Assembly: GCA_964017235.1 (NCBI GenBank)
Contig: OZ024933.1
Location: forward strand, 94,083,432 to 94,147,431
Source: Sabellastarte sp. h YS-2021
Lineage: Eukaryota; Annelida; Polychaeta; Sabellida; Sabellidae
DNA: 64,000 nucleotides
Reading direction: 5' to 3'
Part shown: piece after piece, positions 9,745 through 52,569 of the stretch
Layout of the letters: every line of letters starts with the position of its first letter
Numbering within the stretch: position 1 is the stretch's first letter
Position numbers and translations under genes: made by a program
The notes under the pieces: generated by a model
What the model saw: only the letters and a program-made list of their open reading frames with translations
Databases searched by the model: none
What the model was told of the DNA's origin: nothing

Positions 9745-10545
9745 AGGTCTTGCCAGCACAAAGTGTCAGGAACCTTGGAGTGGTGTTCGACTCTAATTTC
9801 AATTTCTCAAACCACGTGTCACAGGTCATTAAGTCCACTAGATTACAAGCGAGAGACCTCTACAGAATCCATCCCCTTCTAGACCTGAATACATCAGTGC
9901 TGTTAACAAATGCTTTGGTGAGCAGCAGGCTGGACTACTGCAATTCACTCTTCTTATCGCTCACTGATTTTGAGTTAAGGAGATTGCAGCTAGTCCAGAA
10001 CTCACTCTGCAGGGTTGTCACCGGTTCCTCTAAATTCTCACACATTACCCCTCAACTAAAAAAACTTCATTGGTTACCAGTCAAATACAGGGTACAATTT
10101 AAAATTGGTCTTATTACATATAAGATTCTCAAGGGTCAACCAGTTTACCTAAGAGGATTAATCTATCCCTACACCTCTTCTAGAAACACGAGGTGAAGTA
10201 CCCCCAAACTCAAGTTCCTTCAAGCGTAAAGTTTACAAATCAATTAAACACTTTTCTAATTCCTTCAGTCACTATGCCCCTGTCATTTGGAACTCTTTCC
10301 CTTTCCATGTAAGAAATAGTCCTTCTGTTGCATCATTTAGGAAGCACCTCAAAACTCATCTCTTCAGTTCTAGCTTCCCAACTTAGTTTTCGTTCCCTCC
10401 CGGTCACACCCACAATCCTGGATTATCGACCTTGAACGCCCCTCGATTTTAATATGAAAATGATTTTGTTTAATTAGCGCACTGTTTCCCCATTGTGGGG
10501 AAGATATTGGGCTTGCAAAGCAGTAGATTAGATTAGATTAGATTA
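9745..10545 (+). pseudogene. 5'-truncated L2/CR1-like non-LTR retrotransposon 3' end
   Basis: The frame at 9750-10196 encodes the C-terminal end of a non-LTR reverse transcriptase: VRNLGVVFDSNFNFSNHV, SSRLDYCNSL, LRRLQLVQNSLCRVVTG and LHWLPVKYRVQFKI are characteristic of CR1/L2-type ORF2. After a frameshift near 10195 the homology continues in another frame with YAPVIWNSFP and FRKHLKTHLF. The element ends in a (GATTA)n microsatellite at 10523-10545, the kind of short 3' tandem tail such elements use. The upstream reverse transcriptase and endonuclease are missing, as expected of 5' truncation during target-primed reverse transcription. It is a dead copy. Confidence 0.85.
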
Positions 10546-11726: not shown

Positions 11727-13102
11727 AATAATCTAGTAGTGCTATATATCAAGAACCATATGTATAGAGCTATGAAAAACTGACTAAAATTTTAAATATA
11801 AGAACTTTTCCCATGTAGGAAAAATAATGTTTTTTTGGTTTTTCCATGTAAATTCAATCTATTTCATAGTTACTGTACATATGTCAGTTGCACCAGTAAT
11901 CATGCTACTTAATAAAAAATATCAATAAAGTATGTGATAAAACAAGTTTACACTAAGTTTTCCACAACTATAAAATACTTCAGGCATTATTTATGCTGAA
12001 TTATGAAGAAAATGTCCACAAAAATGCTAAAAAAACATTTGTTGCATTCATTTAATTTAAAATGTCACAGGTTATATGTCACAGGGTTACTGACCCAGTT
12101 TTCATGCTATCTGTTGGTTATTTCAGAAACTTTAAAAATTAAATAATTTTTGCACAATACTATACAAAACAAAGACATAACCGTTGAACTCAATGCAATA
12201 AAGTTTCCAATGGTGTTTTAATTGTAAAAATTGGTAATGTATTGACAGATTTACAAGCAATTAAAGATAAACAAAATTTCCCATTGCATGGATAAAAAAT
12301 TATTTTCAAACAAACCACTGCATGAACCCAAAATAAAGACTAAAAGAGTTTGACAAGTGATATCCAAGTACCTGATTCAACTACAGAAATGATAAATGTA
12401 TCATTTTAAAGAAAAATTACAGTCGATTTTGTCAGTTTTATTTGAACAAAGTTCGTTTTGTATTGGCTGAGATATTGTTACATATGCAGCAAACACACGA
12501 AAACTAGTGGGGTGTGGCATGATAACATGACCCATTTGTACCTACCCTCAAAAACTTGAGTCAAGCTTGCCAACCAAAGCATATAAAATGAAATGGTTCA
12601 CATTAAAATATATCTTAATGATGGGCAGTTGTGGAGAGACAACTTCAGGTCAACTGGATTAGCAGTTTTTTTATGAGAAAGGAATATGTTACCAAAATTC
12701 ACCATTTTTTCACGAAAAATTTGTTCACTCTGAAAAAAGCAAAGTTTTAAAATGTGTATATTGCATATAAATCTCTTAATAAATGCTAAAAAACAATATT
12801 TTTATGAAAGCATATTATCTCACGTTTGATTTGGTATATAAAACTTGAACCTACCTTCAATACTTTTTAAACTACAAGCTCTTGAGTATGTGCTGGTGGA
12901 TATGCAAATTTAGGTTTGAAAATTGGGTGACTTTGTTGGAGCACCCACTACTATAACATTTTTTTGTCTTTTACTGACATTTTTAGTCAAATGATAGCCT
13001 AAAGTCTTTGGTTAAATGTGATCAAGATTTAAAGTCATTATCCCAATGCATCTCTGAGTATATTTGAATTAAAATATTAAATTCTGTTGTCCGAAACGCC
13101 CT

Positions 13103-13804
13103 GTCACATCTGAAGAGGCCACCTTTAAAAAAAACCAGGAGCTGCAGAATCAAACAAAGATGCTGTTTAGAAGGAACAACATGTACATTATAATGCCTGA
13201 AAATATAAACCTTTAATGGTTTTCTTCAACAGAATGACAGGCAAAAGTTTCTGTCCGAAACAGAAAATGTCACATCTGAAGAGGTTTAGTTTAACCTATG
13301 AAGATGTATTGTCATGATTGATAGTTTTAAAAGCAATATTTCAGCTTTATTTTATATTATTTTGTTTTAGGGAATATAAAACTGTGTACAGACATGAAAG
13401 TTTATTGGAAAAAGTCCCTAATATACAAATGAGGATGCCTACTTTTAAAAATTTACACTTTCTTCACAAAATGTAGATTTTACTTCCAGTGACATGGATA
13501 GATGAAATCAATGATCATTATTATGACTTACCATGAAAGTCAAATGCACTTAGTTGTAATCCAGTTCAGAAAAAAGGCTATTGGAAGATCGCTTCTGGAA
13601 TAGTTTGACACCAATGGAACTCTTCAGATGTGACCAAATGCTCTTCAGATGTGACATTAAATAGTTTTGTCTCAACGTTTTCCCCATTCTTTACCTTGTG
13701 CAAATCCTTTATACAAAGGTCCGCAATTTCCAATATGTTGTCACATATTAGAATAAAAAGGACTCTGAAATGTTGACCTTATTTAACATGTCACATCTGA
13801 AGAG
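13103..13804. repeat. Left cluster of the 15-mer GTCACATCTGAAGAG (5 copies)
   Basis: Exact copies lie at 13103-13117 (+), 13269-13283 (+), 13620-13634 (-), 13641-13655 (-) and 13790-13804 (+). The first two are preceded by the related words TGTCCGAAAC, so there the repeated unit is longer than the 15-mer. The two minus-strand copies are 21 bp apart start to start. The last copy ends exactly where the DIRS recombinase remnant begins. Confidence 0.85.
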
Positions 13805-16300
13805 CTCTAACCAATTGGACAATTGCTAATGCAGTTGGGAACACTGGCCCACCAAACAAAGTCATTCTGTGTTTCCACCAACAGGATGTTCCAGGAGGGG
13901 ATGCCTCTCCGACCCCTAAGTCTGTCTCTGTGGAAACTAACCAAGAGACAAGTGAGATTCTCATCTTTACTACTATAGATGGGTGCATTTCCAAGTTTGT
14001 CTGCAATGGCTGACCTGTTGCCATCAACTGTACTTGGCCGCAACTTCCTGGGCTGGAATAGATTCAACAGGAAGTCACCAACCTTTGCCCTGAAGTTCAC
14101 CTGATTACTGTGGCACCACTTTGTAAAAATGGTTCACTTAGCCTCATACACTGATTTGGTTGAGACTCTCTGAGGAGCTTCAATTCGTGCTGCCACTACC
14201 TCAGACAAACCTCGCTCATTGATAACTGAGGCTCCAGGAGCCAGACATTGAGATTTAGGTTTGGTAGAATCCTGTGAGGGAAGTGACTGAATGGCTGGGT
14301 TAGCAGATTGGGCAGGTACAGTGGAATTTGACCTGACATGGTCACTAGGTCCCAAAACCAGGGCATGGTGGGCCACCCTGGAGCAATCAGAATAATTCTG
14401 TTGCACAGAGAGTCCTGAAACTTCTCCAGCACTTTGCCCAAGATGGCTACTGGTGGGAAGGCATGAGGGTCCAGATCCTTCCACAGCAGACCAGTGCAAC
14501 CTGCTTTCTGGGAGGGAGCAGGTTCCTCTTATAGTGTGCTCTCCTAAGTTAGTGCCCCACCCTTCTTTTGAAGATTGGCAGAGCACACCTGAGTGTATTG
14601 GTAGACCTTGAAGAACATTTTCTTCATATGGTCATCACTTTAGCTGAGGAGGGAGTGACCTGGGGATAGGGACCACCTTTTCTAGCGATTCTGGAATCTT
14701 CCAATTCCTTTTCAGGTGCCACTGTATAGGTCTCATATGTAGCCATCACAGGTGGACCTGTTTTTCTGTAGCTTTCAGTAGCCCTTATCAGGGACATCAG
14801 CTGCTTGACCTGACATGTTGGTTTTTAGAGCAGTTTCTGAATCTTTGCATTCAGGGTTTTCCAGCACTGTGGGCGACAGGGTCTGACCTTGCCCTCCTTG
14901 AGGTTTAACTGGTAATGTTTGAGGTTGAACACTTGCTTAAGTGGTTTGGGGTCCAGTTCTGATTTTTTCCTGTTTACCAACCTAGCTCCTGACACAGAGC
15001 TGCTAGAGTATGTTTATGCTGGAGACAGGTTTGGTGGGATCTGGCTCTGACCAACCAGTCATCTAAGTACTGGTAGATTCTTATACCCTGTGTAAAACCA
15101 TCAATTTGACCTTCATCACTACTGTAAATTCCATGGGTGTTGTGAACTGCTGGGACTGACCCTGGATGTGAAAATGTTCAGTCTGGCAGATTTATAATCC
15201 CAATAGGAAATTGAACTGGAATCCTTGTCTTTGCTGGTGTGTAAACTATATCCAATCCTGAGACTTGGCAGTCCCGGTGTACTGGTTACATTGCAAATCA
15301 GTAGCCTCCAAACTCCTAGAAGGGTAGCCTTCAACTAGTGTGAGGTTCAGTTTATCCAACTTCTTACATAACCAGTCATCTGTCGGTATGTTGACTGAAT
15401 TTAGATTTATTTTTTATTTTACATCATGTTCAACAGCCAGGGTCATGCTAGTTGGTCAAGATTATGCTCTGTAAACCACCGGGCATTGGTAAGTAACTAT
15501 CAACTTTCCAACATGAAGTACCTGGGCTGAGATTCGAACCGATGACCTCAGAGGTTAAAGGTGAGCATTCTAACCACTACACCACTGAGCCCCCTGCATG
15601 TTGACTGAAATCTTTCCAACTGGTTGCAGTTTTGGCCCTGCAAAGGGGAGGTCATCAGCCTCTGAAGTGGCTGTATCCAGGTCGGGGATATGCTTTCAAC
15701 CCATGAAGGAGTCTAATGCCTCTCTCATTGTCTCTCTATAGCTTTGCTCCTCTGAAAGAGCTTGGTCAGTGTCGGCTGAAGTCGGACCCTGATCTAGGTC
15801 AGACAGCTCCATTTCCTCTGCTGGGCAAACAGTATGAGGTCGGTCAGTGGGGTTGACATTCGAATCAGTGTCCATCTAGGTAAGCTGCCTTGCTGCCTCT
15901 GTAATCAGTGTACTGGACACCTGTCGCTGCATAGCAGTGGATGGGTCAGTCAACAGGCTGAGGTCTGTCAAAAAGCTGAGTTGGTGTAATAAAAGGGTCA
16001 GCTGCCTTCACTGCACCAGCTGGTGGAGCCCTTGTTGGTGTCACTTTCACAGTCTGGAAGGTCAGTTACAGTAGAAAGCTTCTGGCCAACAACATTGCCT
16101 CCAGCCCTGAGAAATGTTCTGACCATTTCTGATCTAGAGCTTCTAATTTTTTGTTAGTTGACAGCTTGGAAGACTTACAAGGCCTTGAATGCTTTTTGGT
16201 CTTATCCTTGTCTTTGGCCAATGTATTCTGAGACTACAGTTGAATATATTAGGGTCTAACTTAGTATCAGCAGCAGCAGCAGATGTGTCAGACTTGCCAT
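13805..16300 (-). pseudogene. DIRS-type tyrosine-recombinase retrotransposon remnant
   Basis: On the minus strand three DIRS-like regions appear in the expected order. Near 16200-16060 there is a gag-like LSTNKKLEALDQKWSEHFSG followed by LEAMLLA. Near 15800-15300 there are linker words such as LTLVEGYPS; the reverse transcriptase core is largely missing. At 14586-14134, in shifted frames, there is RNase H-like sequence: LGKVLEKFQDSL, IILIAPGWPTMPWF and LPNLLTQP. The recombinase N-terminal part follows: SEVVAARIEAPQRVSTKSVYE, broken by a frameshift, then KVGDFLLNLFQ, LRPSTVDGNRSAIADKLGN and SKDENLTCLLVSFHRDR. The catalytic R-H-R-Y part of the recombinase is absent because the remnant stops at 13805. 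Stops and frameshifts are frequent, so it is inactive. A (CAG)n run sits at 16268-16283. The 5' boundary is uncertain. Confidence 0.8.
15400..15597 (-). mobile_element. tRNA-derived SINE with 12-bp target duplication
   Basis: Read on the minus strand it begins GGGGCTCAGTGGTGTAGTGG, has GGTTCGAATCTC as B box, and a body ending in a T/A-rich tail (TAAAATAAAAAATAAATC on the minus strand). ATGTTGACTGAA flanks it directly at 15388-15399 and 15598-15609. The insertion interrupts the DIRS remnant and is therefore younger. The head matches the SINE at 43273-43507, and the CAGCCAGGGTCAT segment matches both that copy and the one at 30544-30686. Confidence 0.88.
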
Positions 16301-16622
16301 CTTGTTTTTCTTTCTTCAGTTTGTAAGAACAGTTATGCTCGCTGATCAGTGGTTAGGATATTACTGCGAGAACAGTCTTCTTTCAAAACACAATGGTTGC
16401 TGCCCTTACCCTTGTCACGATAACATACACAGTGGGTTGTTACTATTAAAGGTTGGCATTGTGATCTCATGTCCCTCTTTTCTGTCCCGGTGATACCATG
16501 TTAAGAAGTAACAATCACAATACGTAGAAAATATGAAATTAAAGTTCAAATCCGCAAACCAGTACACGTACAACATGGAAAAGATGATGTGATGTCACAC
16601 TGACTAGACAAGAAGGAAGTAT

Positions 16623-17154
16623 GTCACATCTGAAGAGCCACTTTTATTTCATCTAAAAATGACACCCATGTTGCAAGTTATAATTATTTATTACTTTCTT
16701 GGTGCAATATAAACCTTTCTAAGCTTTGACAAGAAAATAAACACTAAAATTTTTAAAAAGTCACATCTGAAGAGCTATAAGTCACATCTGAAGAGCATGT
16801 GTCACATCTGAAGAGTTTGCTTTGGAGACCTATATATGTGAAACCTGTACAATCATCCTAACATTGGTTCTTTTAGAGGTAGACCACCTTTAGGTTAACA
16901 CCTGCAAAAAGTTTCAACTTTTTGGATATAGTACTTTTCTTTTTACAAGAAACGAAATGTGTTTTTTCAATAGGTGCTAAATATGCAAAAATAGAAAGCT
17001 GTCAAAAAATTTAACCAAGTTTCCATACATTGTTAACTTCATTCATATATGTTAGGGTGCTCAGTATAGTATTGGCAAAACACAAAATATGCTTTGTTAT
17101 TAAGTCTTAAAATTATTAAAAATGAGAATTTCATGATGTGTCACATCTGAAGAG
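16623..17154 (+). repeat. Right cluster of the 15-mer GTCACATCTGAAGAG (5 copies)
   Basis: Exact plus-strand copies lie at 16623-16637, 16760-16774, 16781-16795, 16801-16815 and 17140-17154. Three of them are packed at 20-21 bp intervals, about two helical turns, recalling a protein-binding array. The cluster is 187-719 bp from the right inverted repeat of the host element. Confidence 0.85.
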
Positions 17155-17448
17155 TTTCCAGACACACCTTTATATTCTTCAAGTTAAAATATACAAAACG
17201 ACAAAAAGTTATCTTTTCATTATTGGAAGTAGATACTAGGGTCATAGTAGTATCTAAATAAACAGTTAGGTTTAATCTCCCAAAGACTTTAAAATTTCAC
17301 CTCCAGTGAACACTTTTGGGTCATGTTATCGTGCCACACCCCTAGTGCTAGCACGAAAACTGGACCATCGACCATATATGCAGTGAAATTCATTACACTC
17401 ACTAACTTTTGTCACCTGCCATTTAAACCCATTATTTCTGTTCAACCA

Positions 17449-19194
17449 TGTAGTGGTGTTGGACCAATTTTCATGCCCGTGTACCTATTCATGCCCACCC
17501 CTAAATCTATCCAAAACAATCACAGTTAAACAGTAAATGATCCATTTGATGATTATCTATGATTTGGTAAACATCTTCTCTATGAAAAATTATAACGAAG
17601 TGATTATCCGTCCGGTCTGACCCATTAATTAGGGATTCGTTTATGTATCGGATCGTGCAAAATTTAAAGAAAAAACAACTTTAAACTTGAGAACTCACGG
17701 CCATAGAACCCAGTTCATTAATATTATTAATATATGAGGATACCCCTGCGATTTCCTTGCAATATTTTGTAAAATAGAAGCATGGACAAAAATCAAATAC
17801 TTTAAACTTGAGAAAAGCACCCAAGTCATTAATATTCATGAGAAGATATGAGGACACAGATTTCCCCTGGGATTTCCTTGCAGCTCACATGGCTTGTCAC
17901 GAGAGTTTTTAAAAGACGTCTAGACCTTGCGACCTGATGAATAATATACAGCCTCAACATTGGGTGGAACCCGACGAATAATCCCTTGCAAATTATAAAT
18001 CTTTACAAGTGATAAGTTGATTGCAATTAATACTTGTAAGCCTGATCAGTCAGTTTTAAGCAAAACAATAGCTTATACTATGAGACTTTACATATATTTT
18101 TCCATATAATCTTTTACACATTCTTCCCCACAAGTGATACAAGATTGTAACTGGGGAGTGAACAAATAATTCACATTTGTTAAATTTACTCAAGCACTGT
18201 ATATTAATTACATGTAAAAAGGAAAAGATTACACTATCAAGTTTTCTAATGGTTTAATTTCCAGATTTAATACAAATTATTTTGAATGTCTTATTTAGTT
18301 CTCCATAGCTGGTACTAATGATATGTTAATGGGGAAAATACTTTAAATACTACAAACAAAATATCCATAATTCACAAACAATAGAATAGATTCACTGAGA
18401 ACCAGGGAAAAAATTTTTTTTCCCTGTATCTACATCTTGTATATACAATGTTTGTCTTGACTAAGTATTTTGTTTAAGTACTGCTATGAAAGAAAAAATA
18501 AAAATTAAAAAAGAGATTCATACTAAAAATTATTTTAAAAATATACTTTACCCAAATTTATTTAATCACTACATGTAAAATTAGAGCTTAGTCGTAAGTC
18601 AATTAATCCCTCAGTCACTCAATTAATCCCTCAATGCTCAGGCCAATGTTGTTGACTTGAAGACAAGGGGAAAATTCATAGGTGTAATCAACAACACAGT
18701 ACTTGATTTGTTTGTCTTCAATTATTCAACTGTCAATTATTAATTACAAAATTAGACTAAGGTTCTTCCTTTATTTCACTTTTGGGAGAGTCATGACTAA
18801 ATAGGATTAATTATCACCAAAAATAAAGAGTTATAGTTGGCCAGTTCTCCTTATCTATCTATAATAATATTCTAAGGTACTAATGTAGTCTTTAAAAGGT
18901 TTTGAAACCTAAAAATGCATTTATATTACAAACATTGGGCTATCAAATGCTTATTTGTAATGCCTGCAGGGAAATTTTTTATGATGGGCTCATAAATAAC
19001 TAGGGGGTACAAAATATGGCAAAGGGGATACAGAATATAGCAGGGGATACAAAATATGGCAGCCCCCTTGCCATATTTTGTATCCCCATACACTTTGTGG
19101 CAGCCACCCTTGCCATATTTTGTATCCCCACACACTTTGTGGGGGATACATTATCTGGCGCTACACCGGGCGTGAATTGGTCCACCACCACTAG
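17449..19194. mobile_element. TAGTGGTG-ended element inside long duplication copy
   Basis: The left end (TAGTGGTGTTGGACCAATTT, 17449 onward, continuing CATGCCCGTGTACC) is inverted relative to the right end near 19168-19194 (CGGGCGTGAATTGGTCCACC, continuing ACCACTA). The intact short version is at 20237-20855. Here the inner part of the right inverted repeat (GGGTGGGCCTGAATTGA) has been lost and about 1.1 kb of other sequence intervenes. No clear target duplication was found. Confidence 0.6.
19009..19153. repeat. GGGGATACAAAATATGGCA inverted/direct repeat cluster
   Basis: The word GGGGATACAAAATATGGCA and its variants occur at about 19010, 19023 and 19043, and its inverse TGCCATATTTTGTATCCCC at about 19070-19087 and 19110-19128, followed each time by CA(T/C)ACACTTTGTGG. 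The stretch can fold into alternative hairpins. Open frames on both strands here are by-products. Confidence 0.75.
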
Positions 19195-24359: not shown

Positions 24360-25242
24360 GTGTGTTAGATGCAGTATGAAATGCAATGATGATCCATGGG
24401 GTTTCCATGGTAGTAAACATTAAAATAAACTATTACAATGTTGCAGATCAGTTTCAACTTTTAACTGTTCAAATATATATTTTAATTTGATTTTCTGAAA
24501 AATATTTCCATAATTATAGCTGTAAAAATTATTGCACAAAATTGTGTGTATTTAGGAGCATTTACTGTGGACTGTTGTTAATCTTTTTGATATTCTGAAA
24601 TGGAAAAGTCAAGTGGCATTTGGATTTTATTGGACTTTTGACACCATTGTGAAGGTCATACAGGAAGTAGAAAAGTATTTATGTAAGTTAAGTGTCAGTG
24701 ATCAACTGATCATAGTGATGAAGGTTTGATACATTCAAACCCCCTAAATAAAAACAGTGATAGGTTGACTTCTCTTTCAAATATAAATAAATGTCAGATC
24801 TCTAAAGAGCATTTTTCCTTGAAGCAATTATTGAAGTATTTTTAAGTGTCCCGCAAGGGACACTTGTTTGTGTATGGGAGAGCTTCCGGCTCCGGCGGCT
24901 CCGGCGGCTCCGCATTTTGTTTTCCTGATAACTCTGTAACCATTAGGCGGATTCTTTTCAAATTTGGCAGGTTTAGGCAGTAGCCTTGGGGAATTTTTTT
25001 GAATATGCTGCAGTGACATTTCAACCAATCAGAGAGGTCACATGACTAAAAATGTCTTTTTTCGATGGGGAAGCTTGTCCGGATGATAACTTGAAAGGAA
25101 TTTTATCAATTCACCTGAAACTTGGCAAATACATTCATTCTATTAAAATCTGGAAATCATTAGATTTTGGCATTGATTGGTCAAGAAATGGCCGAGTAAT
25201 TAATGATTAATTAATCATTACGAATTTTCCAAATAAGGAAAA

Positions 25243-26090
25243 CACAAAAATGCTTATATCTCGAAAACCGTGCTAGATAGAGCGATTTCGACGAAATTTT
25301 TGACCCGCAAGGTATCTCTGCGGAGTAGTTTTCCCAATTTTCAAAAAATTTTTGTCTCACCCAAATGGCGGCCATTTTGAATTTTCGATTTCGCAAAAAT
25401 TGCAAAACACAAAAATGCTTATATCTCAAAAACCGTGCTAGATAGAGCAATTTCGACAAAATTTTTGACTCGCAGGATATCTCTGCGGAGTACTTTTCCC
25501 AATTTTCAAAAAATTTTTGTCTCGCCAAAAATGGCGGCCATTTTGAATTTTCGAAATTTTCGCAAAAATTGCAAAACACAAAAATGCTTATATCTCGAAA
25601 ACCGTGCTAGATAGAGCGATTTCGACGAAATTTTTGACCCACAGGGTATCTCTGCAGAGTAGTTATCCCAATTTTGAAAAAAATTTTGTCTCGTCAAAAA
25701 TGGCGGCCATTTTGAATTTTCGAATTTTTCGCAAAAATTGCAAAACATAAAAATGCTTATATCTCGAAAACCCTGCTAGATAGAGCGATTTCGACGAAAT
25801 TTTTGACCCACAGGGTATATCTGCAGAGTAGCCATGCCAATTTTCAAAAAAATTTTGTCTCGGCAAAAATGGCGGCCATTTTGAATTTTCGAATTTTTCG
25901 CAAAAATTGCAAAACATAAAAATGCTTATATCTCAAAAACCCTGCTAGATAGAGCGATTTCGACGAAATTTTTGACCCGCAGGGTATCTCTGCAGAGTAG
26001 CCATGCCAATTTTCAAACAAAAAATTTCTCGCAAAAAATGGCGGCCATTTTGAATTTTCGAATTTTTCGCAAAATTGCAAAACACAATCT
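25243..26090. repeat. 168-bp tandem repeat (satA), ~5 units
   Basis: The word CACAAAAATGCTTATATCTC (or its CATAAAAATG variant) recurs at 25243, 25408, 25577, 25746 and 25915, with a truncated unit near 26083. Each unit contains CTCGAAAACCGTGCTAGATA, GCGATTTCGACGAAATTTTT, TATCTCTGC.GAGTAG and the palindrome AAAATGGCGGCCATTTT. The overlapping minus-strand frames of 80-122 codons are read-through of this repeat and are not genes. Confidence 0.95.
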
Positions 26091-26122
26091 TCAGGGTATC
26101 TCTGCAGAGCAGCTATCCAAAA

Positions 26123-28780
26123 GAGCTTTCACTTGGTGAAGTTTCAGACCCATAGCTAATTGCTCACCTACTCAAAAAGAGTAAATGCGAATTACCTCTA
26201 AAAGTATTGCAGATGGCCAATTTTTCTCAACTCATTCACCTACTTTTGGAAGAGCTTTCACATGGTGAAGTTTCAGACCCATAGCCAATTACTCACCTAC
26301 TCAAAATGAGTAAATGCGAATTATCTCTAAAAGTATTGCAGATAGCCAATTTTTCTCAAATAACTCATTCATGTACTTTTGGGAGAGCTTTCACATGGTG
26401 AAGTTTCAGACCCATAGCTAATTATTTACCTACTCAAAATGAGTAAATGCTAATTATCTGTAAAAGTATTGCGGATACCCAATTTTTGTCAAATAACTCA
26501 TTCATCTACTTGTGGGAGAGCTTTCACATGGTGAAGTTTCAGACCCATAGCTAATTACTCACCTACTCAAAATGAGTAAATGCGAATTATCTCTAAAAGT
26601 ATTGCAGATAGCCAATTTCTCTCAAATAACTCATTCACCTACTTTTGGGAGAGCTTTCACTCTGTGAAGTTTCAGACCCATAGCTAATTACTCACCTACT
26701 CAAAATGAGTAAATGCGAATTATCTGTAAAAGTATTGCAGATAGCCAATTTTTCTCAAATAACTCATTCACCTACTTTTGGGAGAGCTTTCACTTGGTGA
26801 AGTTTCAGACCCATAGCTAATTACTCACCTACTCAAAATGAGTAAATGCGAATTATCTCTAAAAGTATTGCAGATAGCCAATTTTTCTCAAATTAATCAT
26901 TCACCTACTTTTGGGAGAGCTTTCACTTGGTGAAGTTTCAGACCCATAGCTAATTACTCACCTACTCAAAATGAGTAAATGCGAATTATCTCTAAAAGTA
27001 TTGCAGATAGCCAATTTTTATCAAATAACTCATTCACCTACTTTTGGGAGAGCTTTCACTCTGTGAAGTTTCAGACCCATAGCTAATTACTCACCTACTC
27101 AAAATGAGTAAATGCGAATTATCTCTAAAAGTATTGCAGATAGCCAATTTTTCTCAAATAACTCATTCACCTACTTTTGGGAGAGCTTTCACTTGGTGAA
27201 GTTTCAGACCCATAGCTAATTACTCGCCTACTCAAAATGAGTAAATGCGAATTATCTATAAAAGTATTGCAGATAGCCAGTTTTTCTCAAATAACTCATT
27301 CACCTACTTTTGGGAGAGCTTTCACTTGGTGAAGTTTCAGACCCATAGCTAATTACTCACCTACTCAAAATGAGTAAATGCGAATTATCTCTAAAAGTAT
27401 TGCAGATAGCCAGTTTTTCTCAAATTAATCATTCACCTACTTTTGGGAGAGCTTTCACTTGGTGAAGTTTCAGACCCATAGCTAATTACTCACCTACTCA
27501 AAATGAGTAAATGCGAATTATCTGTAAAAGTATTGCAGATAGCCAATTTTTCTCAAATAACTCATTCACCTACTTTTGGGAGAGCTTTCACTTGGTGAAG
27601 TTTCAGACCCATAGCTAATTACTCACCTACTCAAAATCAGTAAATGCGAATTATCTCTAAAAGTATTGCAGATAGCCAATTTTTCTCAAATCAATCATTC
27701 ACCTACTTTTGGGAGAGCTTTCACTTGGTGAAGTTTCAGACCCATAGCTAATTACTCGTCTACTCAAAATGAGTAAATGCGAATTATCTCTAAAAGTATT
27801 GCAGATAGCCAATTTTTCTCAAATAACTCATTCACCTACTTTTGGGAGAGCTTTCACTTGGTGAAGTTTCAGACCCATAGCAAATTACTCACCTACTCAA
27901 AATGAGTAAATGCGAATTATCTCTAAAAGTATTGCAGATAGCCAATTTTTCTCAAATAACTCATTCACCTACTTTTGGCAGAGCTTTCACTTGGTGAAGT
28001 TTCAGACCCATAGCTAATTATTCACCTACTCAAAATGAGTAAATGTGAATTATCTCTAAAAGTATTGCAGATAGCCAATTTTTCTCAAATAACTCATTCA
28101 CCTACTTTTGGGAGAGCTTTCACTCTGTGAAGTTTCAGACCCATAGCTATTTATTCACCTACTCAAAATGAGTAAATGCTAATTATCTGTAAAAGTATTG
28201 CAGATACCCAATTTTTATCAAATACTCATTCATCTACTTGTGGGAGAGCTTTCACATGGTGAAGTTTCAGACCCATAGCTAATTACTCACCTACTCAAAA
28301 TAAGTAAATGCGAATTATCTCTAAAAGTATTGCAGATAGCCAATTTTTCTCAAATAACTCATTCACCTACTTTTGGCAGAGCTTTCACTTGGTGAAGTTT
28401 CAGACCCATAGCTAATTACTCACCTACTGAAAATGAGTAAATGTGAATTATCTCTAAAAGTATTGCAGATAGCCAATTTTTCTCAAATAACTCATTCACC
28501 TACTTTTGGGAGAGCTTTCACTTGGTGAAGTTTCAGACCCATAGCTAATTACTCACCTACTCAAAATGAGTAAATGCGAATTATCTCTAAAAGTATTGCA
28601 GATAGCCAGTTTTTCTCAAATAACTCATTCACCTACTTTTGGGAGAGCTTTCACTTGGGGAAGTTTCAGACCCATAGATAATTATTCACCTACTCAAAAT
28701 GAGTAAATGTGAATTATCTCTTAATAGTATTGCAGATAGCCAATTTTTCTCAAATAACTCATTCACCTACTTTTGGAAGA
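26123..28780. repeat. 133-bp tandem repeat (satB), 20 units
   Basis: Units run from GAGCTTTCAC..GGTGAAGTTTCA, through GACCCATAGCTAATTACTCA and CTCAAAATGAGTAAATG, to GTATTGCAGATAGCCAATTT and a TTCACCTACTTTTGG end. The array length of 2658 bp is 20 units almost exactly. Variant words (CACTCTGTGAAG, AAATTAATCATTC, TTGGCAGAGC) mark individual units. The first four and last few units carry shared edge variants (CATGGTGAAG, GATACCCAATTTTT) also seen in copy 2. Confidence 0.95.
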
Positions 28781-29292
28781 CCTTTCGCACACGAAAATGA
28801 AAAATTGTGAATATCTCGGAAAAGCTATTTCTTCTGCTTTAATGCTCGGCTGGAGATACACACCACGGCAGTGGTCTTGACAAAAATTGTGGTCTCCCCA
28901 AAAATGGTGGCCATTTTGAATTTTCAAAGTTTTTGCAAAACACAAAAATGCTTATATCTCGAAAACCGTGCTATATGGAGTGAACTCAACAAAATTTTGG
29001 ACCTGCTGGGTATCTCTGCAGAGTAGCCATGCCAATTTTCAAAATATTTTTGTCTCGCCAAATATAGCGGACATTTTTAATTTTTTTATTTTTTGCAAAA
29101 CACAAAAATGCTTATATCTTGAAAACCATGCTAGATAGAGCAGACTGCGCTGACTTTGGTTGCCACAACAGTATAAGGCTAGAAACGAAGCATTTTCTTA
29201 ATAATTTAGCACTCACCTTTATATCCTTTTCGGGACGCTTTGTTTTTGCTATACAAAAACATTATCTTTTTTTTTTGCGAGCGATCCTCTAG
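28781..29292. repeat. Right segment of composite element copy 1
   Basis: After the array come AAAATTGTGAATATCTCGG, a GCTCGGCTGGAGATACACAC stretch and two diverged satA-like units (near 28930 and 29095). The terminal domain with CCTTTTCGGGACGCTTTG and GCGAGCGATCCTCTAG follows. It matches 52060-52569 nearly base for base. Confidence 0.85.
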
Positions 29293-32814: not shown

Positions 32815-33077
32815 GTAAGTTTTACATGAATTTTAAGCTATTGTTTAAGGAAACAGAATATTGGTTTGTTTATTTGTCTGTTTGTTTGTCTGCACTTGTA
32901 ACTTAAAAACTACACATTGTGTCAAGGTTTTCTTTTCACACAAATTAGAGTCAATCTGAATCAAGACTCCACAATTTTATTTAGGTAGTTTTTAATAATA
33001 TCTGCTCCAAAGTTCATTGATCATATCAGGATTTCATTCTCACACAAAGGTCTAGCCTGAAAGATGGGAAAAAGTTT

Positions 33078-34345
33078 GTCCGGGCTGTATCTCAGAAACC
33101 GTAAGGTGTAGGAAGTTGATACTTGGTAGGGACATTGGTTAGGGGGTGTTGGTGTGCAACGTCATGGTGTGACCTTGATTTGACCTTTGACCTTGCCGCA
33201 GTGACCTTGAGTTTAAAAATCTTGTAAAGCGTAAGGTGTAGGAAGTTGATACTTGGTAGGGACATTGGATAGGGGGTGTAGATGTGCACCGTCATGGTGT
33301 GACCTTGATTTGACCTTTGACCTTGCCGTAGTGACCTTGACCTTTAAAATCTTGTCCGGGCTATATCTCGGAAAGCGTAAGGTTTATGAAGTTGATACTT
33401 GGTAGTGACATTAGTTAGGCGGTGTAGGTGTGCAATGTCATGGTGTGACCTTGATTTGCCTTGCCGGAGTGACCTTGACCTATAAAATCTTGTCCGGGCT
33501 ATATCTCAGAAACCGTAAGGTGTAGGAAATTGATACTTGGTAGGGACATTGGTTGGGGGTTGTCGGTGTGCAACGTCATGATGTGACCTTGATTTGACCT
33601 TGCCGTAGTGACCTTGACCTATAAAATCTTGTCCGGGCTATATCTCAGAAACTGTAAGGTGTAGGAAGTTGATACTTGGTAGGGACATTGGTTACGGGGT
33701 GTAGGTGTGTACCGTCATGGTGTGACCTTGATTTGACCTTTGACCTTGCTGTAGTGACCTTGACCTATAAAATCTTGTTTGGGCTATATCTCGGAAAGCG
33801 TAAAGTGTAGGAAGTTGATACTTTGTAGGGACATTGGTTGGGGGTTGTAGGTGTGCAATGTCATGGTGTGACCTTGATTTGACCTTTGACCTTGCTGTAG
33901 TGACCTTGACCTATAAAATCTTGTTTGGGCTATATCTCTGAAAGCGTAAGGTGTAGGAAGTTGATACTTGGTAGGAACATTGGTTGGGGGTTGTAGGTGT
34001 GCAATGTCATGGTGTGACCTTCATTTGACCTTTGACCTTGCCGTAGTGACCTTGACCTTTAAAATTTTGTCCAGACAATATCTCTGAAACTGTAAAGTGT
34101 AGGAATTTGATAGTTGGTGGGGGCATTGGTTAGGAGTTGTAGGTGTGCATTATAATTTTTAGTTTACCGATTAATGCTGTCATCTTGCTATTGAATTGTC
34201 TTGTTTTAATACTTTATCTTTACATACATTTTCCTTCTCTTAGATGTTATTTTCTCTACTTACACATTATTTGGTCCATTAACCGACATTGCTCTGAATC
34301 TTTGTACTGTTTCACTATTTCTATATCTCATGGTGTCTAAAGTTT
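33078..34345. repeat. ~146-bp tandem repeat with AGGTCA half-sites plus unique tail, copy 1
   Basis: About 7.5 units (33078-34150) of TGTCCGGGCTATATCTCAGA, CGTAAGGTGTAGGAAGTTGA, TACTTGGTAGGGACATTGG, GTGACCTTGATTTGACCTTT, GACCTTGCCGTAGTGACC. A noncoding tail follows (TTTAGTTTACCGATTAATGC to TCTCATGGTGT). The same array-plus-tail plan is seen at 37256-37745 and 41045-42110, so this is one dispersed element family. It lies in BRIP1 intron 4. Exact AGGTCA direct repeats spaced by one base (seen as TGACCTTTGACCT) lie at 33181, 33311, 33734, 33880 and 34026. Confidence 0.9.
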
Positions 34346-39056: not shown

Positions 39057-39350
39057 AGGGTCTCATGTGGCTCAGTTGGTAGGGTGTTGGACTTATAATC
39101 CAAGGGTTGTGGGTTCGATCCCCAGTGATGCCAACTGTTTCATGTGGGATAACATCCTTGGGCAAGATCTTAACCTGGACTGGGCCTCTCTCCACCCAGG
39201 GGAAATGTGGGTACCCAGCTTTAAGGGATACTGGCTTCTGCGCCTTGCATGGCAGCAATAGGTAAGGTTACCAAGGCTAGCTACCAAGGTTAGCTTTGAG
39301 CTAATAATAGAAAAAGCACTATATAACAATATAAGAGCCCAGTATTATTA
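39057..39350 (+). mobile_element. tRNA-derived SINE (TGTGGCTCAGTTGG head)
   Basis: The head has a strong A box (TGGCTCAGTTGGTAGGGTG), an anticodon-like arm (TTGGA..TCCAA) and B box GGGTTCGATCC. The acceptor stem does not pair, so it is not a tRNA gene. A SINE body follows: ATCCTTGGGCAAGATCTTAA, CTCTCTCCACCCAGGGGAAA, GAGCTAATAATAG and AAAGCACTATATAA. A TATTAT-rich tail ends near 39350. Confidence 0.8.
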
Positions 39351-41044: not shown

Positions 41045-42110
41045 TGTGTACTCGCCGTAGTGACCTTGACCTATAAAATTTTGTCCGGGCCATATCTCAG
41101 AAACTGTAAGGTGCAGGAAGTTGATACTTGTAGGGACATGGGTTTGGGGGTGTAGGTGTGCAACGTCATGGTGTGACCTTGATTTAACCTTTGACCTTGC
41201 TGTAATGACCTTGACCTGTAAAATCTTGTCCGGGCGATATCTCAGAAACCGTAAGGTGTAGGAAGTTGACACTTGGTAGGGACATTGGTTAGGGGGTGCA
41301 GGTGTGCAACGTCATGATGTGACCTTGATTTGACCTTTGACCTTGCTGTAGTGACCTTGACCTATAAAATCTTGTCCATACCATATCTCAGAAACTGTAA
41401 GGTGCAGGAAGTTGATACTTGATAGGGACATTGTTGGGGTATTGTAGGTGTGCAACATCATGGTGTGACCTTGATTTGACATTTGACCTTGCCGTAGTGA
41501 TCTTGACCTATAAAATCTTGTACGGGCTATATTTTGGAAACTGTAATTAATGTGTAGGAAGTTGATACTTGGTAGGGATATTGGTTAGGGTTTATAGGTG
41601 TCAATGAGTTTTAAAATCTTGTCTGGGATATTTCTTTGATTCCATAAGGTGTAGAAGGTTGACACTTGGTAGGGACATTGGTTAGGGTGTGTATTTAAAT
41701 ATATATGTGCATCATGGTGTGACCTTTTTCTCAGCCAAAGTGTGTTCATCTGCCATATTTGTGACATCTTTCTCTTGTGACAAATATATATGGATTGCTG
41801 CAACTTATTATTATATGCACTTTTACATAATTATACTATTTCTATTGACAGCTATTCTCCAATTAATAAATTTTACAGCTTCATATTTTTTTAGTTTACT
41901 GATTAATGCTGTTATCTTGCTATTGAATTGTCTTGTTTTAGTACTTTATTTTTACATACATTTTCTTTCTCTACTTAAACATTATTTGGACCTTTATATA
42001 ACTGTCACTGCTCTGAAAGTATCCCGATCTTTGTACTGTTTTACCACTTCTATATCTCGTGGTGTTGAAAACTAGTTCCCCAGGCTGTGGGGTATTGGTA
42101 TCACTGATGC
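41045..42110. repeat. AGGTCA-repeat element, copy 3 (~5 units plus tail)
   Basis: Units at about 41080, 41225, 41370, 41517 and 41625 carry the same words as 33078-34150 and decay towards the right. The tail (41885-42110) ends in CCCCAGGCTGTGGGG (42078-42092). The exact AGGTCA DR1 word is kept at 41331-41343. An AT-rich stretch separates the last unit from the tail. Confidence 0.87.
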
Positions 42111-47668: not shown

Positions 47669-48580
47669 AAACACAAAAATGCTTATATCTCGAAAACCGT
47701 GCTAGATAGAGCGATTTCGACGAAATTTTTCTCTGTGTAGTAGTTTTCCCAATTTTCAAAAAAATTTTGTCTCGCCCAAAATGGCGGCCATTTTGAATTT
47801 TCGAAATTTTCGCAAAAATTGCAAAACACAAAAATGCTTATATCTCAAAAACCGTGCTAGATAGAGCAATTTCGACAAAATTTTTGATCCATAGGATATC
47901 TGTGCGGAGTACTTTTCCCAATTTTCAAAAAATTTTTGTCTCGCCAAAAATGGCGGCCATTTTGAATTTTCGAAATTTTAGCAAAAATTGCAAAACACAA
48001 AAATGCTTATATCTCGAAAACCGTGCTAGATAGAGCGATTTCGACGAAATTTTTGACCCACAGGGTATATCTGCAGAGTAGCCATGCCAATTTTCAAAAA
48101 AATTTTGTCTCGCCAAAAATGGCGGCCATTTTGAATTTTCGAATTTTTCGCAAAAATTGCAAAACATAAAAATGCTTATATCTCGAAAACCCTGCTAGAT
48201 AGAGCGATTTCGACGAAATTTTTGACCCACAGGGTATCCCTGCAGAGTAGCCATGCCAATTTTCAAACAAAAAATTTCTCGCAAAAAATGGCGGCCATTT
48301 TGAATTTTCGAATTTTTCGCAAAATTGCAAAACACAAAAATGCTTATATCTCGAAAACCGTGCTAGATAGAGCGATTTCGACGAAATTTTTGACCCACAG
48401 GGTATCTCTGCAGAGTAGCCATGCCAATTTTCAAAAAAATTTTCTCTTGCCAAAAATGGCGGCCATTTTGAATTTTCGAATTTTTGTGCAAAAATTGCAA
48501 AACACAAAAATGCTAATATTTCGAAAACCGTGCTACATAGAGCGATTTCGACGAAATTTTTTATCTTCAGGGTATCTCTG
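47669..48580. repeat. satA (~168-bp) array, ~5.5 units
   Basis: ACACAAAAATGCTTATATCT-type words start near 47671, 47827, 47997, 48165 (as ACATAAAAATG), 48335 and 48505. The first unit lacks ~13 bp compared with copy 1. The last unit (GCTAATATTTCG) is present here but mostly deleted in copy 1. Confidence 0.93.
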
Positions 48581-48598
48581 CAGAGCAGCTATCCCAAA

Positions 48599-51500
48599 GA
48601 GCTTTCACTTGGTGAAGTTTCAGACCCATAGCTAATTCCTCACCTACTCAAAAAGAGTAAATGCGAATTACCTCTAAAAGTATTGCAGATGGCCAATTTT
48701 TCTCAAATAACTCATTCACCTACTTTTGGAAGAGCTTTCACTTGGTGAAGTTTCAGACCCGTAGCTAATTACTCACCTACTCAAAATGAGTAAATGCTAA
48801 TTATCTCAAAAACTATTGCAGATACCCAATTTTTATCAAATAACTCATTCATGTACTTTTGGGAGAGCTTTCACATGGTGAAGTTACAGACCCGTAGATG
48901 ATTACTCACCTACTCAAAATGAGTAAATGCGAATTATCTCTTAAAAGTATTGCAGATAGCCAATTTTTCTCAAATAACTCATTCACCTACTTTTGGAAGA
49001 GCTTTCACATGGTGAAGTTTCAGACCCATAGCTAATTACTCACCTACTCAAAATGACTAAATGCGAATTATCTCTAAAAGTATTGCAGATAGCCAATTTT
49101 TCTCAAATAACTCATTCACCTACTTTTGGGAGAGCTTTCACATGGTGAAGTTTCAGACCCATAGCTAATTATTTGCCTACTCAAAATGAGTAAATGCTAA
49201 TTATCTGTAAAAGTATTGCGGATACCCAATTTTTCTCAAATAACTCATTCATCTACTTGTGGGAGAGCTTTCACATGGTGAAGTTTCACACCCATAGCTA
49301 ATTACTCACCTACTCAAAATGAGTAAATGCTAATCATCTGTAAAAGTATTGCAGATAGCCAATTTTTCTCAAATAAATCATTCACCTACTTTTGGGAGAG
49401 CTTTCACTTGGTGAAGTTTCAGACCCATAGCTAATTACTCACCTACTCAAAATGAGTAAATGCGAATTATCTCTAAAAGTATTGCAGATAGCCAATTTTT
49501 CTCAAATTAATCATTCACCTACTTTGGGGAGAGCTTTCACTTGGTGAAGTTTCACACCCATAGCTAATTACTCATCTACTCAAAATGAGTAAATGCGAAT
49601 TATCTCTAAAAGTATTGCAGATAGCCAATTTTTCTCAAATAACTCATTCACCTACTTTTGGGAGAGCTTTCACTCTGTGAAGTTTCAGACCCATAGCTAA
49701 TTACTCACCTACTCAAAATGAGTAAATGCGAATTATCTCTAAAAGTATTGCAGATAGCCAATTTTTCTCAAATAACTCATTCACCTACTTTTGGCAGAGC
49801 TTTCACTTGGTGAAGTTTCAGACCCATAGCTAATTACTCACCTACTGAAAATGAGTAAATGTGAATTATCTCTAAAAATATTGCAGATAGCCAATTTTTC
49901 TCAAATAACTCATTCACCTACTTTTGGGAGAGCTTTCACTTGGTGAAGTTTCAGACCCATAGCTAATTACTCACCTACTCAAAATGAGTAAATGCGAATT
50001 ATCTCTAAAAGTATTGCAGATAGCCAATTTTTCTCAAATTAATCATTCACCTACTTTTGGGAGAGCTTTCACTTGGTGAAGTTTCAGACCCATAGCTAAT
50101 TACTCACCTACTCAAAATGAGTAAATGCGAATTATCTCAAAAAGTATTGCAGATAGCCAATTTTTCTCAAATAACTCATTCACCTACTTTTGGGAGAGCT
50201 TTCACTTGGTGAAGTTTCAGACCCATAGCTAATTACTCACCTACTCAAAATGAGTAAATGCGAATTATCTCTAAAAGTATTGCAGATAGCCAATTTTTCT
50301 CAAATTAATCATTCACCTACTTTTGGGAGAGCTTTCACTTGGTGAAGTTTCAGACCCATAGCTAATTACTCACCTACTCAAAATGAGTAAATGCGAATTA
50401 TCTCTAAAAGTATTGCAGATAGCCAATTTTTCTCAAATAACTCATTCACCTACTTTTGGCAGAGCTTTCACTTGGTGAAGTTTCAGACCCATAGCTAATT
50501 ATTCACCTACTCAAAATGAGTAAATGTGAATTATCTCTAAAAGTATTGCAGATAGCCAATTTTTCTCAAATAACTCGTTCACCTACTTTTGGGAGAGCTT
50601 TCACTTGGTGAAGTTTCACACCCATAGCTAATTACTCATCTACTCAAAATGAGTAAATGCGAATTATCTCTAAAAGTATTGCAGATAGCCAATTTTTCTC
50701 AAATAACTCATTCACCTACTTTTGGGAGAGCTTTCACTCTGTGAAGTTTCAGACCCATAGCTAATTACTCACCTACTCAAAATGAGTAAATGCGAATTAT
50801 CTCTAAAAGTATTGCAGATAGCCAATTTTTCTCAAATAACTCATTCACCTACTTTTGGCAGAGCTTTCACTTGGTGAAGTTTCAGACCCATAGCTAATTA
50901 CTCACCTACTGAAAATGAGTAAATGTGAATTATCTCTAAAAGTATTGCAGATAGCCAATTTTTCTCAAATAACTCATTCACCTACTTTTGGGAGAGCTTT
51001 CACTTGGTGAAGTTTCAGACCCATAGCTAATTACTCACCTACTCAAAATGAGTAAATGCGAATTATCTCTAAAAGTATTGCAGATAGCCAATTTTTCTCA
51101 AATAACTCATTCACCTACTTTTGGGAGAGCTTTCACTCTGTGAAGTTTCAGACCTGTAGCTAATTACTCACCTACTCAAAATGAGTAAATGCGAATTATC
51201 TCTAAAAGTATTGCAGATAGCCAATTTTTCTCAAATTAATCATTCACCTACTTTTGGGAGAGCTTTCACTTGGTGAAGTTTCAGACCCATAGCTAATTAC
51301 TCACCTACTCAAAATGAGTAAATGCGAATTATCTCTAAAAGTATTGCAGATAGCCAATTTTTCTCAAATAACTCATTCACCTACTTTTGGGAGAGCTTTC
51401 ACTTGGTGAAGTTTCAGACCCATAGCTAATTACTCACCTACTCAAAATGAGTAAATGCGAATTATCTCTAAAAGTATTGCAGATAGCCAATTTTTCTCAA

Positions 51501-52059
51501 ATAACTCATTCACCTACTTTTGGCAGAGCTTTCACTTGGTGAAGTTTCAGACCCATAGCTAATTATTCACCTACTCAAAATGAGTAAATGTGAATTATCT
51601 CTAAAAGTATTGCAGATAGCCAATTTTTCTCAAATAACTCGTTCACCTACTTTTGGGAGAGCTTTCACTCTGTGAAGTTTCAGACCCATAGCTATTTATT
51701 CACCTACTCAAAATGAGTAAATGCTAATTATCTGTAAAAGTATTGTGGATACCCAATTTTTATCAAATACTCATTCATCTACTTGTGGGAGAGCTTTCAC
51801 ATGGTGAAGTTTCAGACCCATAGCTAATTGCTCACCTACTCAAAATGAGTAAATGCGAATTATCTCTAAAAGTATTGCAGATAGCCAATTTTTCTCAAAT
51901 AACTCATTCACCTACTTTTGGGAGAGCTTTCACTTGGTGAAGTTTCAGACCCATAGATAATTATTCACCTACTCAAAATGAGTAAATGTGAATTATCTCT
52001 TAATAGTATTGCAGATAGCCAATTTTTCTCAAATAACTCATTCACCTACTTTTGGAAGA
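48599..52059. repeat. satB (133-bp) array, 26 units, with 8-unit higher-order period
   Basis: The length of 3461 bp is 26 units. Diagnostic variants recur exactly 1063-1064 bp (8 units) apart: TTCACACCCA at 49551 and 50614, CACTCTGTGAAG at 49671 and 50735, TTGGCAGAGC at 49791 and 50855, CCTACTGAAA at 49841 and 50905, TTGGC at 50456 and 51520, TAACTCGTTC at 50571 and 51635. Confidence 0.95.
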
Positions 52060-52569
52060 GCTTTCACACACGAAAATGAAAAATTGTGAATATCTCGGAA
52101 AAGCTATTTCTTCTGCTTTAATGCTCGGCGGGAGATACACACCGCGGCAGTGGTCTTGACAAAAATTTTTGTCTCCCCAAAAATGGTGGCCATTTTGAAT
52201 TTTCAAAGTTTTTGCAAAACACAAAAATGCTTATATCTCGAAAACCGTGCTATATGGAGCGAACTCAACAAAATTTTGGACCTGCTGGGTATCTCTGCAG
52301 AGTAGCCATGCCAATTTTCAAAATATTTTTGTCTCGCCAAATATAGCGGACATTTTTAATTTTTTATTTTTTGCAAAACACAAAAATGCTTATATCTTGA
52401 AAACCGTGCTAGATAGAGCAGACTGCGCTGACTTTGGTTGCCACAACAGTATAAGGCTAGAAACGAAGCATTTTCTTAATACTTTAGCACTCACCTTTAT
52501 ATCCTTTTCGGGACGCTTTGTTTTTGCTATGCAAAAACATTATCTTTTTTTTTGCGAGCGATCCTCTAG
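52060..52569. repeat. Right segment of composite element copy 2
   Basis: Two diverged satA-like units (near 52212 and 52375) and the terminal domain; differs from copy 1 at only scattered positions. Its 118-codon plus-strand frame is incidental. Confidence 0.85.

Follow-up and report, generated by a model that had tools for sequence, protein, structure and literature searches.

A probable nonautonomous DNA transposon family with subterminal word arrays and a retroelement interior in the genome of Sabellastarte sp.

Analysis of a 64,000-nucleotide stretch of the genome of Sabellastarte sp. h YS-2021 (contig OZ024933.1, positions 94,083,432–94,147,431; hereafter, the window) showed the presence of a 4834-bp repetitive element, located at positions 12509–17342 of the window. 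The element probably represents, with a confidence of about 0.7, a nonautonomous cut-and-paste DNA transposon, which would be mobilized in trans by a transposase of the type encoded at locus L043 (845 aa) and which carries, inside both ends, short words as predicted binding sites of this protein. According to this model, the basic N-terminal part of the L043-type protein would bind the subterminal words, of which three follow one another at intervals of 20–21 bp, corresponding to about two helical turns. Several molecules bound in this way would bring the two element ends together, and the catalytic part would cut at GGGG...CCCC and join the 3′ ends with a stagger of 4 bp, with a preference for CTNNAG-like targets. 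Two features of the family deserve attention, namely, the capture of a retroelement piece and a similar word spacing in the two families compared.

Element structure, genomic copies and target duplication

The element is bounded by inverted ends of 26 bp, GGGGTGTGGCATGATAACATGACCCA on the left (12509–12534, + strand) and TGGGTCATGTTATCGTGCCACACCCC on the right (17317–17342, − strand), both detected by inverted-repeat search; the two 26-nt ends are 96% complementary. The terminal inverted repeats described in the earlier note are therefore present, being one base longer than the 25 bp given there. Read from the inner side, the repeat at 12509–12534 begins with GGGTCATG, and the ends of a relative (L047:618–640) begin with GGGTCATTC, which may be due to chance.

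Ten exact copies of the 15-mer GTCACATCTGAAGAG, eight on the + strand and two on the − strand, are located 188–1281 bp inside the element ends and form two subterminal clusters, as had been reported from the first reading of the sequence. The left array (13103–13804) contains copies at 13103 (+), 13269 (+), 13620 (−), 13641 (−) and 13790 (+). The right array (16623–17154), where all copies are on the + strand, contains those at 16623, 16760, 16781, 16801 and 17140; counted from the right end, these positions are at 705, 568, 547, 527 and 188 bp. In 100 shuffles, the count was 0.

The genome searched comprises 1,785,957,881 bases in 647 contigs. The 15-mer occurs in it 711 times in exact form (357 + 354), versus 2 occurrences of the reversed control, and the end motif, with up to two mismatches, 141 times, versus 0 for its control. 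Among the first 100 listed of the 711 15-mers, 92 belong to copies in which one or both ends were recognised; the 8 remaining ones lie in two degraded relatives, at C1:116.77–116.78 Mb and C2:24.04 Mb. The earlier view of a family-specific word is supported. Searches with the left and the right 0.4 kb of the element each gave 40 matches from the best 40 of 79 candidates, at 95–100% and 97–100% identity, respectively. Terminal inverted repeats are present at both ends of many copies, and the family consists of dozens of dispersed copies with defined ends. Three copies (L013, L019 and L032) are about 99% identical to the window copy over 4.8 kb, and identity to other copies is lower; this pattern points to the existence of subfamilies and suggests that the family is likely to have moved recently. 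Seven end pairs located 5.27–5.30 kb apart enclose a 74–76% version of the retroelement fragment described below and probably represent a third subfamily (C3:165000084–165005387, C4:83820525–83825827, C4:144488620–144493919, C5:7393199–7398473, C5:29133881–29139182, C7:4501394–4506697 and C8:21581960–21587260). The ends of one more pair, C6:123371093–123373511, are only 2.4 kb apart, perhaps as a result of internal deletion.

The hexamer CTAGTG, regarded in the earlier note as a 6-bp target duplication, does flank the element on both sides, but the other copies indicate that only its inner part, TAGT, is duplicated, and that the neighbouring G and C are the element's own terminal bases. Ends were read in 35 copies, comprising 25 of the 26 loci of the first set (L017, without paired ends by the pattern, was left out of the counts) and 10 further chosen end pairs. 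An exact 4-bp repeat directly outside GGGG...CCCC was found in 26 of the 35 copies, and a 6-bp repeat in 16, while neither was present in 9; exact 6-bp repeats in the 26-locus set numbered 14. In the 26 copies with the 4-bp repeat, C stands to the left of the repeat in 21 and G to its right in 20, while the terminal G of the element is kept in 25 and the terminal C in 26. The repeat starts with T in 18 of the 26 cases and ends with A in 20, which, together with the C/G flanks, suggests a preference for CTNNAG-like targets; the C and G around the duplication are accordingly read as target preference.

Empty sites were sought by joined-flank queries, for which 26 segments were built and 14 searched, with the best 40 candidates scored per search. 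One search gave 80 of 86 matches at 97–100% identity (best 40 of 3,123 candidates), covering L029 and L039, whose insertions lie in copies of the same host repeat, at a distance of about 200 bp from each other. A second search gave 40 of 40 matches at 96–97% (best 40 of 4,565 candidates), covering L067 (35), L014 (3) and L025 (2). All 11 fetched empty sites, representing five insertions other than that of the window, read as predicted, with 115–120 of 120 bases identical. The junctions of these five insertions, G-TATA-G, C-TACA-G, C-TACA-C, T-TTTA-G and C-ACCA-T, contradict a 6-bp CNNNNG duplication in four cases. The 6-bp target duplication was rejected on the strength of the 26 copies with a 4-bp repeat and of the empty sites, which read 4 bp. 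Among the best 40 candidates per search, empty sites were not found for 9 of the 14 segments, including the window's own; by the family rule, the target duplication of the window copy would be TAGT, at 12505–12508 on the left and 17343–17346 on the right, with C before the left TAGT and G after the right one as target bases.

Subterminal words and their spacing

In 25 copies compared with the window copy, word positions differ by 0.43% (left) and 0.61% (right), versus 2.1% outside the words; random blocks were as low as the words in 9 of 5000 draws on the left and 167 of 5000 on the right. In the coding relative L011/L012 (C1:116,764,900–116,784,700), the left and right arrays of which are 84% and 91% identical to those of the window element, the words contain 1/60 + 1/60 changes, versus 94/567 + 33/318 outside, or 2/120 versus 127/885 in total; cross-array rows (L012 left, L011 right) were excluded from these totals as array repeats. 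The words were not spared in L016 (8/45 vs 62/583), and no significant sparing was found in L046 (9/45 vs 125/430). Word sparing is thus clear in recent copies and in the coding relative, but not in each old one.

An arrangement similar at one end was found in an intact relative, in which the 845-aa gene is located in a 6136-bp element on C3 and a 6116-bp element on C2, 99.2% identical to each other. These elements have the ends GGGTC...GACCC, 4-bp duplications ATAT and AGCT, and no other frame above 152 aa, the 152-aa one being without a Pfam match. In the C11 copy, a right end was not detected at the expected place, which leaves two copies of the relative with both ends; the C4 copy L086 aligned over a portion of the 3′ region only, too little to reveal the layout. 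The C3 element contains ten copies, with up to three mismatches, of the 16-bp word TGTCAACACCGTTACA (mean 0.07 and largest 1 in 100 simple shuffles), of which six are located near the 5′ end of the gene and four lie 568, 550, 531 and 191 bp inside the 3′ end of the element. With the right end of the window element as the 3′ side, as judged by the coding relative, the 3′-end distances in the two elements agree within 4 bp (about 190 and 530–570 bp), while the words themselves differ; this comparison covers two families, with one relative. The window element and the relative are laid out differently at the left end, and their words at about 190 bp have opposite strand orientations. A placement model gave 9e-5 for the agreement of the distances, being a model written after the match had been seen, with two word modules and with the left end ignored.

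The words could also be read by a host protein, such as a promoter, silencer or replication factor, in a cut-and-paste element otherwise as described above. Their depth inside the element would suit such a reader, and word sparing alone is compatible with more than one protein in this role. We consider this rather unlikely, since words are present at both ends and the intact relative keeps similar 3′-end distances with a different word, which suits a reader changing along with the element. For the L043-type transposase as the reader, the words would be binding sites used for end pairing, a prediction strengthened by their conservation in recent copies and in the coding relative and by the similar spacing in one other family.

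More tentatively, both families may belong to a superfamily without a Pfam entry and perhaps still to be named, whose transposase would read the ends via a long-range array, comprising one word at about 190 bp and a triplet spaced by 20 bp at about 530–570 bp from one end. The spacing, not the sequence, might then be the lasting end code, because the geometry stays while the word changes between lineages. Several transposon families are known to carry subterminal words; here, two families with different words in a single genome seemingly have the same geometry hundreds of bases from one end, and such families would make it possible to test how transposase and word coevolve at a constant synapse shape.

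Coding relatives and the candidate transposase

In L011/L012, insertions are present between the arrays, along with two same-strand frames: a basic frame of 153 aa, adjoining the left array, and a frame of 159 aa, located toward the right array. About 15 kb, with insertions, separate the N-terminal frame of L011 from the L012 piece. The insertions at this locus include a reverse-transcriptase frame (L011:3727–5106) and tandem repeats; no recognised element ends were found there. Relatives of the 159-aa piece are L042 (E 9e-19) and the 845-aa frame (E 1.4e-5), with only 24–30% identity to the latter. The basic frame has a weak tie to L042 (E 0.003), and L012:7506–7694 aligns to the right-hand portion of the 845-aa frame, which alone is not significant (E 1.8). 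In L046, the left array adjoins the N-terminal region as well, at 70% identity and with the frame broken by four stops; array and coding region thus occur together at two loci. The search for an autonomous relative, proposed in the earlier note, accordingly revealed coding pieces between the same arrays, but no intact transposase gene with the GGGGTGTGG ends of the family was found in the genome search.

Three nearly identical loci, on C3, C2 and C11, carry the 845-aa frame (L043; 814 aa from the first Met) in intact form. This frame showed no Pfam match up to E 1, including none to a Pfam MuDR model, and no convincing PDB sequence match; no convincing relative was found in viral_contigs and genome_contigs by single-protein searches, whose reach is limited to close relatives. 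A PDB match to an immunoglobulin-binding protein (E 0.028), a further match at E 0.22 and a Pfam match of the L011 frame to colicin DNase (E 0.023, below the cut-off) were taken as chance. L043 and L071 are 45–53% identical over the aligned pieces and have the common motifs HxDFSENY, SISD[DC]xxH, FWSDSP and HGKGAPDGxGG; SISD[DC]xxH (position 552 in L043) is located before WSDSP in both. The motifs DFSENY, SISD/WSDSP and GKGAPDG are candidates for a DDD/E core. L071 yielded neither convincing ends nor a convincing array of words.

The coding pieces in L011/L012 and L046 might instead be unrelated genes, located in or beside old copies, with the family moved by another kind of transposase. L011/L012 is indeed full of insertions and without recognised ends, and the protein links are partly weak, as in the matches at E 1.8 and E 0.003. 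The joining of the array to the N-terminal region at two loci argues against such an explanation, as does the intact relative, an element built in the same way, with one gene and 4-bp duplications; we give it slightly less weight than a host reader of the words. A tnp2-type gene, present in the 19-kb copy L021/L022, was also considered as the transposase and discarded, being located within a 14-kb stretch that interrupts this copy; the 685-aa frame there (L022:1484–3541, + strand) matches Transposase_21 (tnp2) with E 4.5e-12.

Among the known groups of transposons, hAT and P elements duplicate 8 bp, Dada 6–7 bp and Polinton 6 bp, lengths that do not fit the 4 bp of the family; CACTA elements duplicate 2–3 bp and have CACTA ends. 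In hAT and CACTA elements, clusters of short words inside both ends act as transposase-binding sites; the clusters in the window family are alike, but the words here reach 1.3 kb inside. Affinity to Sola, Academ, MuDR and Kolobok was weighed by published descriptions, with the addition of Pfam for MuDR, rather than by protein comparison. Sola2 elements have 4-bp duplications, as in the window family, short terminal inverted repeats and, in Dictyostelium fasciculatum, one 888-aa transposase and AWWT targets (PMC3627910). AWWT is not the rule among the 26 repeats of the family, which include TACA, TAGT, TATA and others, flanked by C/G; of the duplications of the intact relative, ATAT agrees with this target, unlike AGCT. 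In bivalves, Academ elements are frequent (PMC10294476), and AcademX, described with a nuclease, has 3–4-bp duplications (PMC10045372); the length fits, whereas the 845-aa frame is without a Pfam match and without a second long frame. Kolobok has RR..YY ends, as here, and a TTAA target, while KolobokP of molluscs duplicates 3–5 bp and has long terminal direct repeats (PMC9587614). TTAA, which is also the target of piggyBac, was found in only 1 of the 26 family repeats, and no long terminal direct repeats were found at 12400–17500 of the window. IS256 and MuDR together cover duplications of 4–10 bp (PMC10045372), a range that includes the 4 bp of the family. The C/DxxH form of SISD[DC]xxH in L043 and L071 recalls the motif located between the second D and the last E in hAT, P, MuDR, Kolobok and Dada (PMC9587614, PMC10045372). 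In the literature search, which extended to further transposon papers (PMC4455052, PMC5753468, PMC8905726, PMC7913693), no account was recognised as this family; subscription papers were mostly outside its scope, so prior publication is possible.

Retroelement interior and other features of the window

The interior of the window copy contains a decayed retroelement fragment (13867–15091, − strand), detected in two frames by protein similarity to the frame of locus L074, with 64% identity over 14490–13867 and 38% over 15091–14495; interior DNA common to the family copies extends to about 16560. Weak matches were obtained to Phage_integrase for the last part of the L074 frame (E 6e-4, under the curated cut-off) and to RVT_1 for the window fragment (E 0.07); they make it likely that the interior is a piece of a DIRS-type retroelement. 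This retroelement is abundant: its piece from L022 gave 52,728 first-look candidates, the best 150 of which, when scored, gave 151 matches, and related frames of up to 1020 aa were found elsewhere in the genome.

A SINE-like insert (about 15400–15597, within 15388–15609) is bounded by 12-bp repeats ATGTTGACTGAA at 15388–15399 and 15598–15609. In L016, the insertion site is present without the insert. Its tRNA-like part was recognised by eye only, with no ARAGORN or Rfam call. The interior, composed of the decayed retroelement fragment and the SINE-like insert, is the reason to regard the window copy as nonautonomous, in line with the earlier note, which had overlooked this retroelement interior with its insert; a retroelement fragment takes the place of a transposase gene. 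The family therefore offers a clear case of a DNA transposon carrying a retroelement piece at the gene position and spreading with it.

A DIRS-type retroelement with the ends and words as its own is very improbable, even with at least part of the GC-richer retroelement middle present in 26 of the 26 family loci compared, since the window fragment is broken into several frames and ends before the Phage_integrase-matching part of L074, the coding relatives have the arrays without the retroelement interior, and the empty sites show a 4-bp target duplication, which tyrosine-recombinase elements are not known to make.

Other features were found in the window. A 234-aa frame at 598–1302 (− strand) matches DDE_Tnp_4 with E 3.2e-20 and encodes a transposase that we take to be of the Harbinger-like kind. 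The frame at 9747–10196 (+ strand), with no Pfam match above chance, resembles by eye the reverse-transcriptase frame L011:3727–5106. A tRNA-Ile-like sequence at 39059–39133 (+ strand; ARAGORN; Rfam tRNA, 35.6 bits) could be a gene or the head of a SINE. The same pair of tandem arrays, with a 169-bp unit and a 133-bp unit, is present at 25239–28786 and 47749–52067, side by side in reversed or like order, and two arrays of a related 146-bp unit are located at 33076–34149 and 41057–41601.
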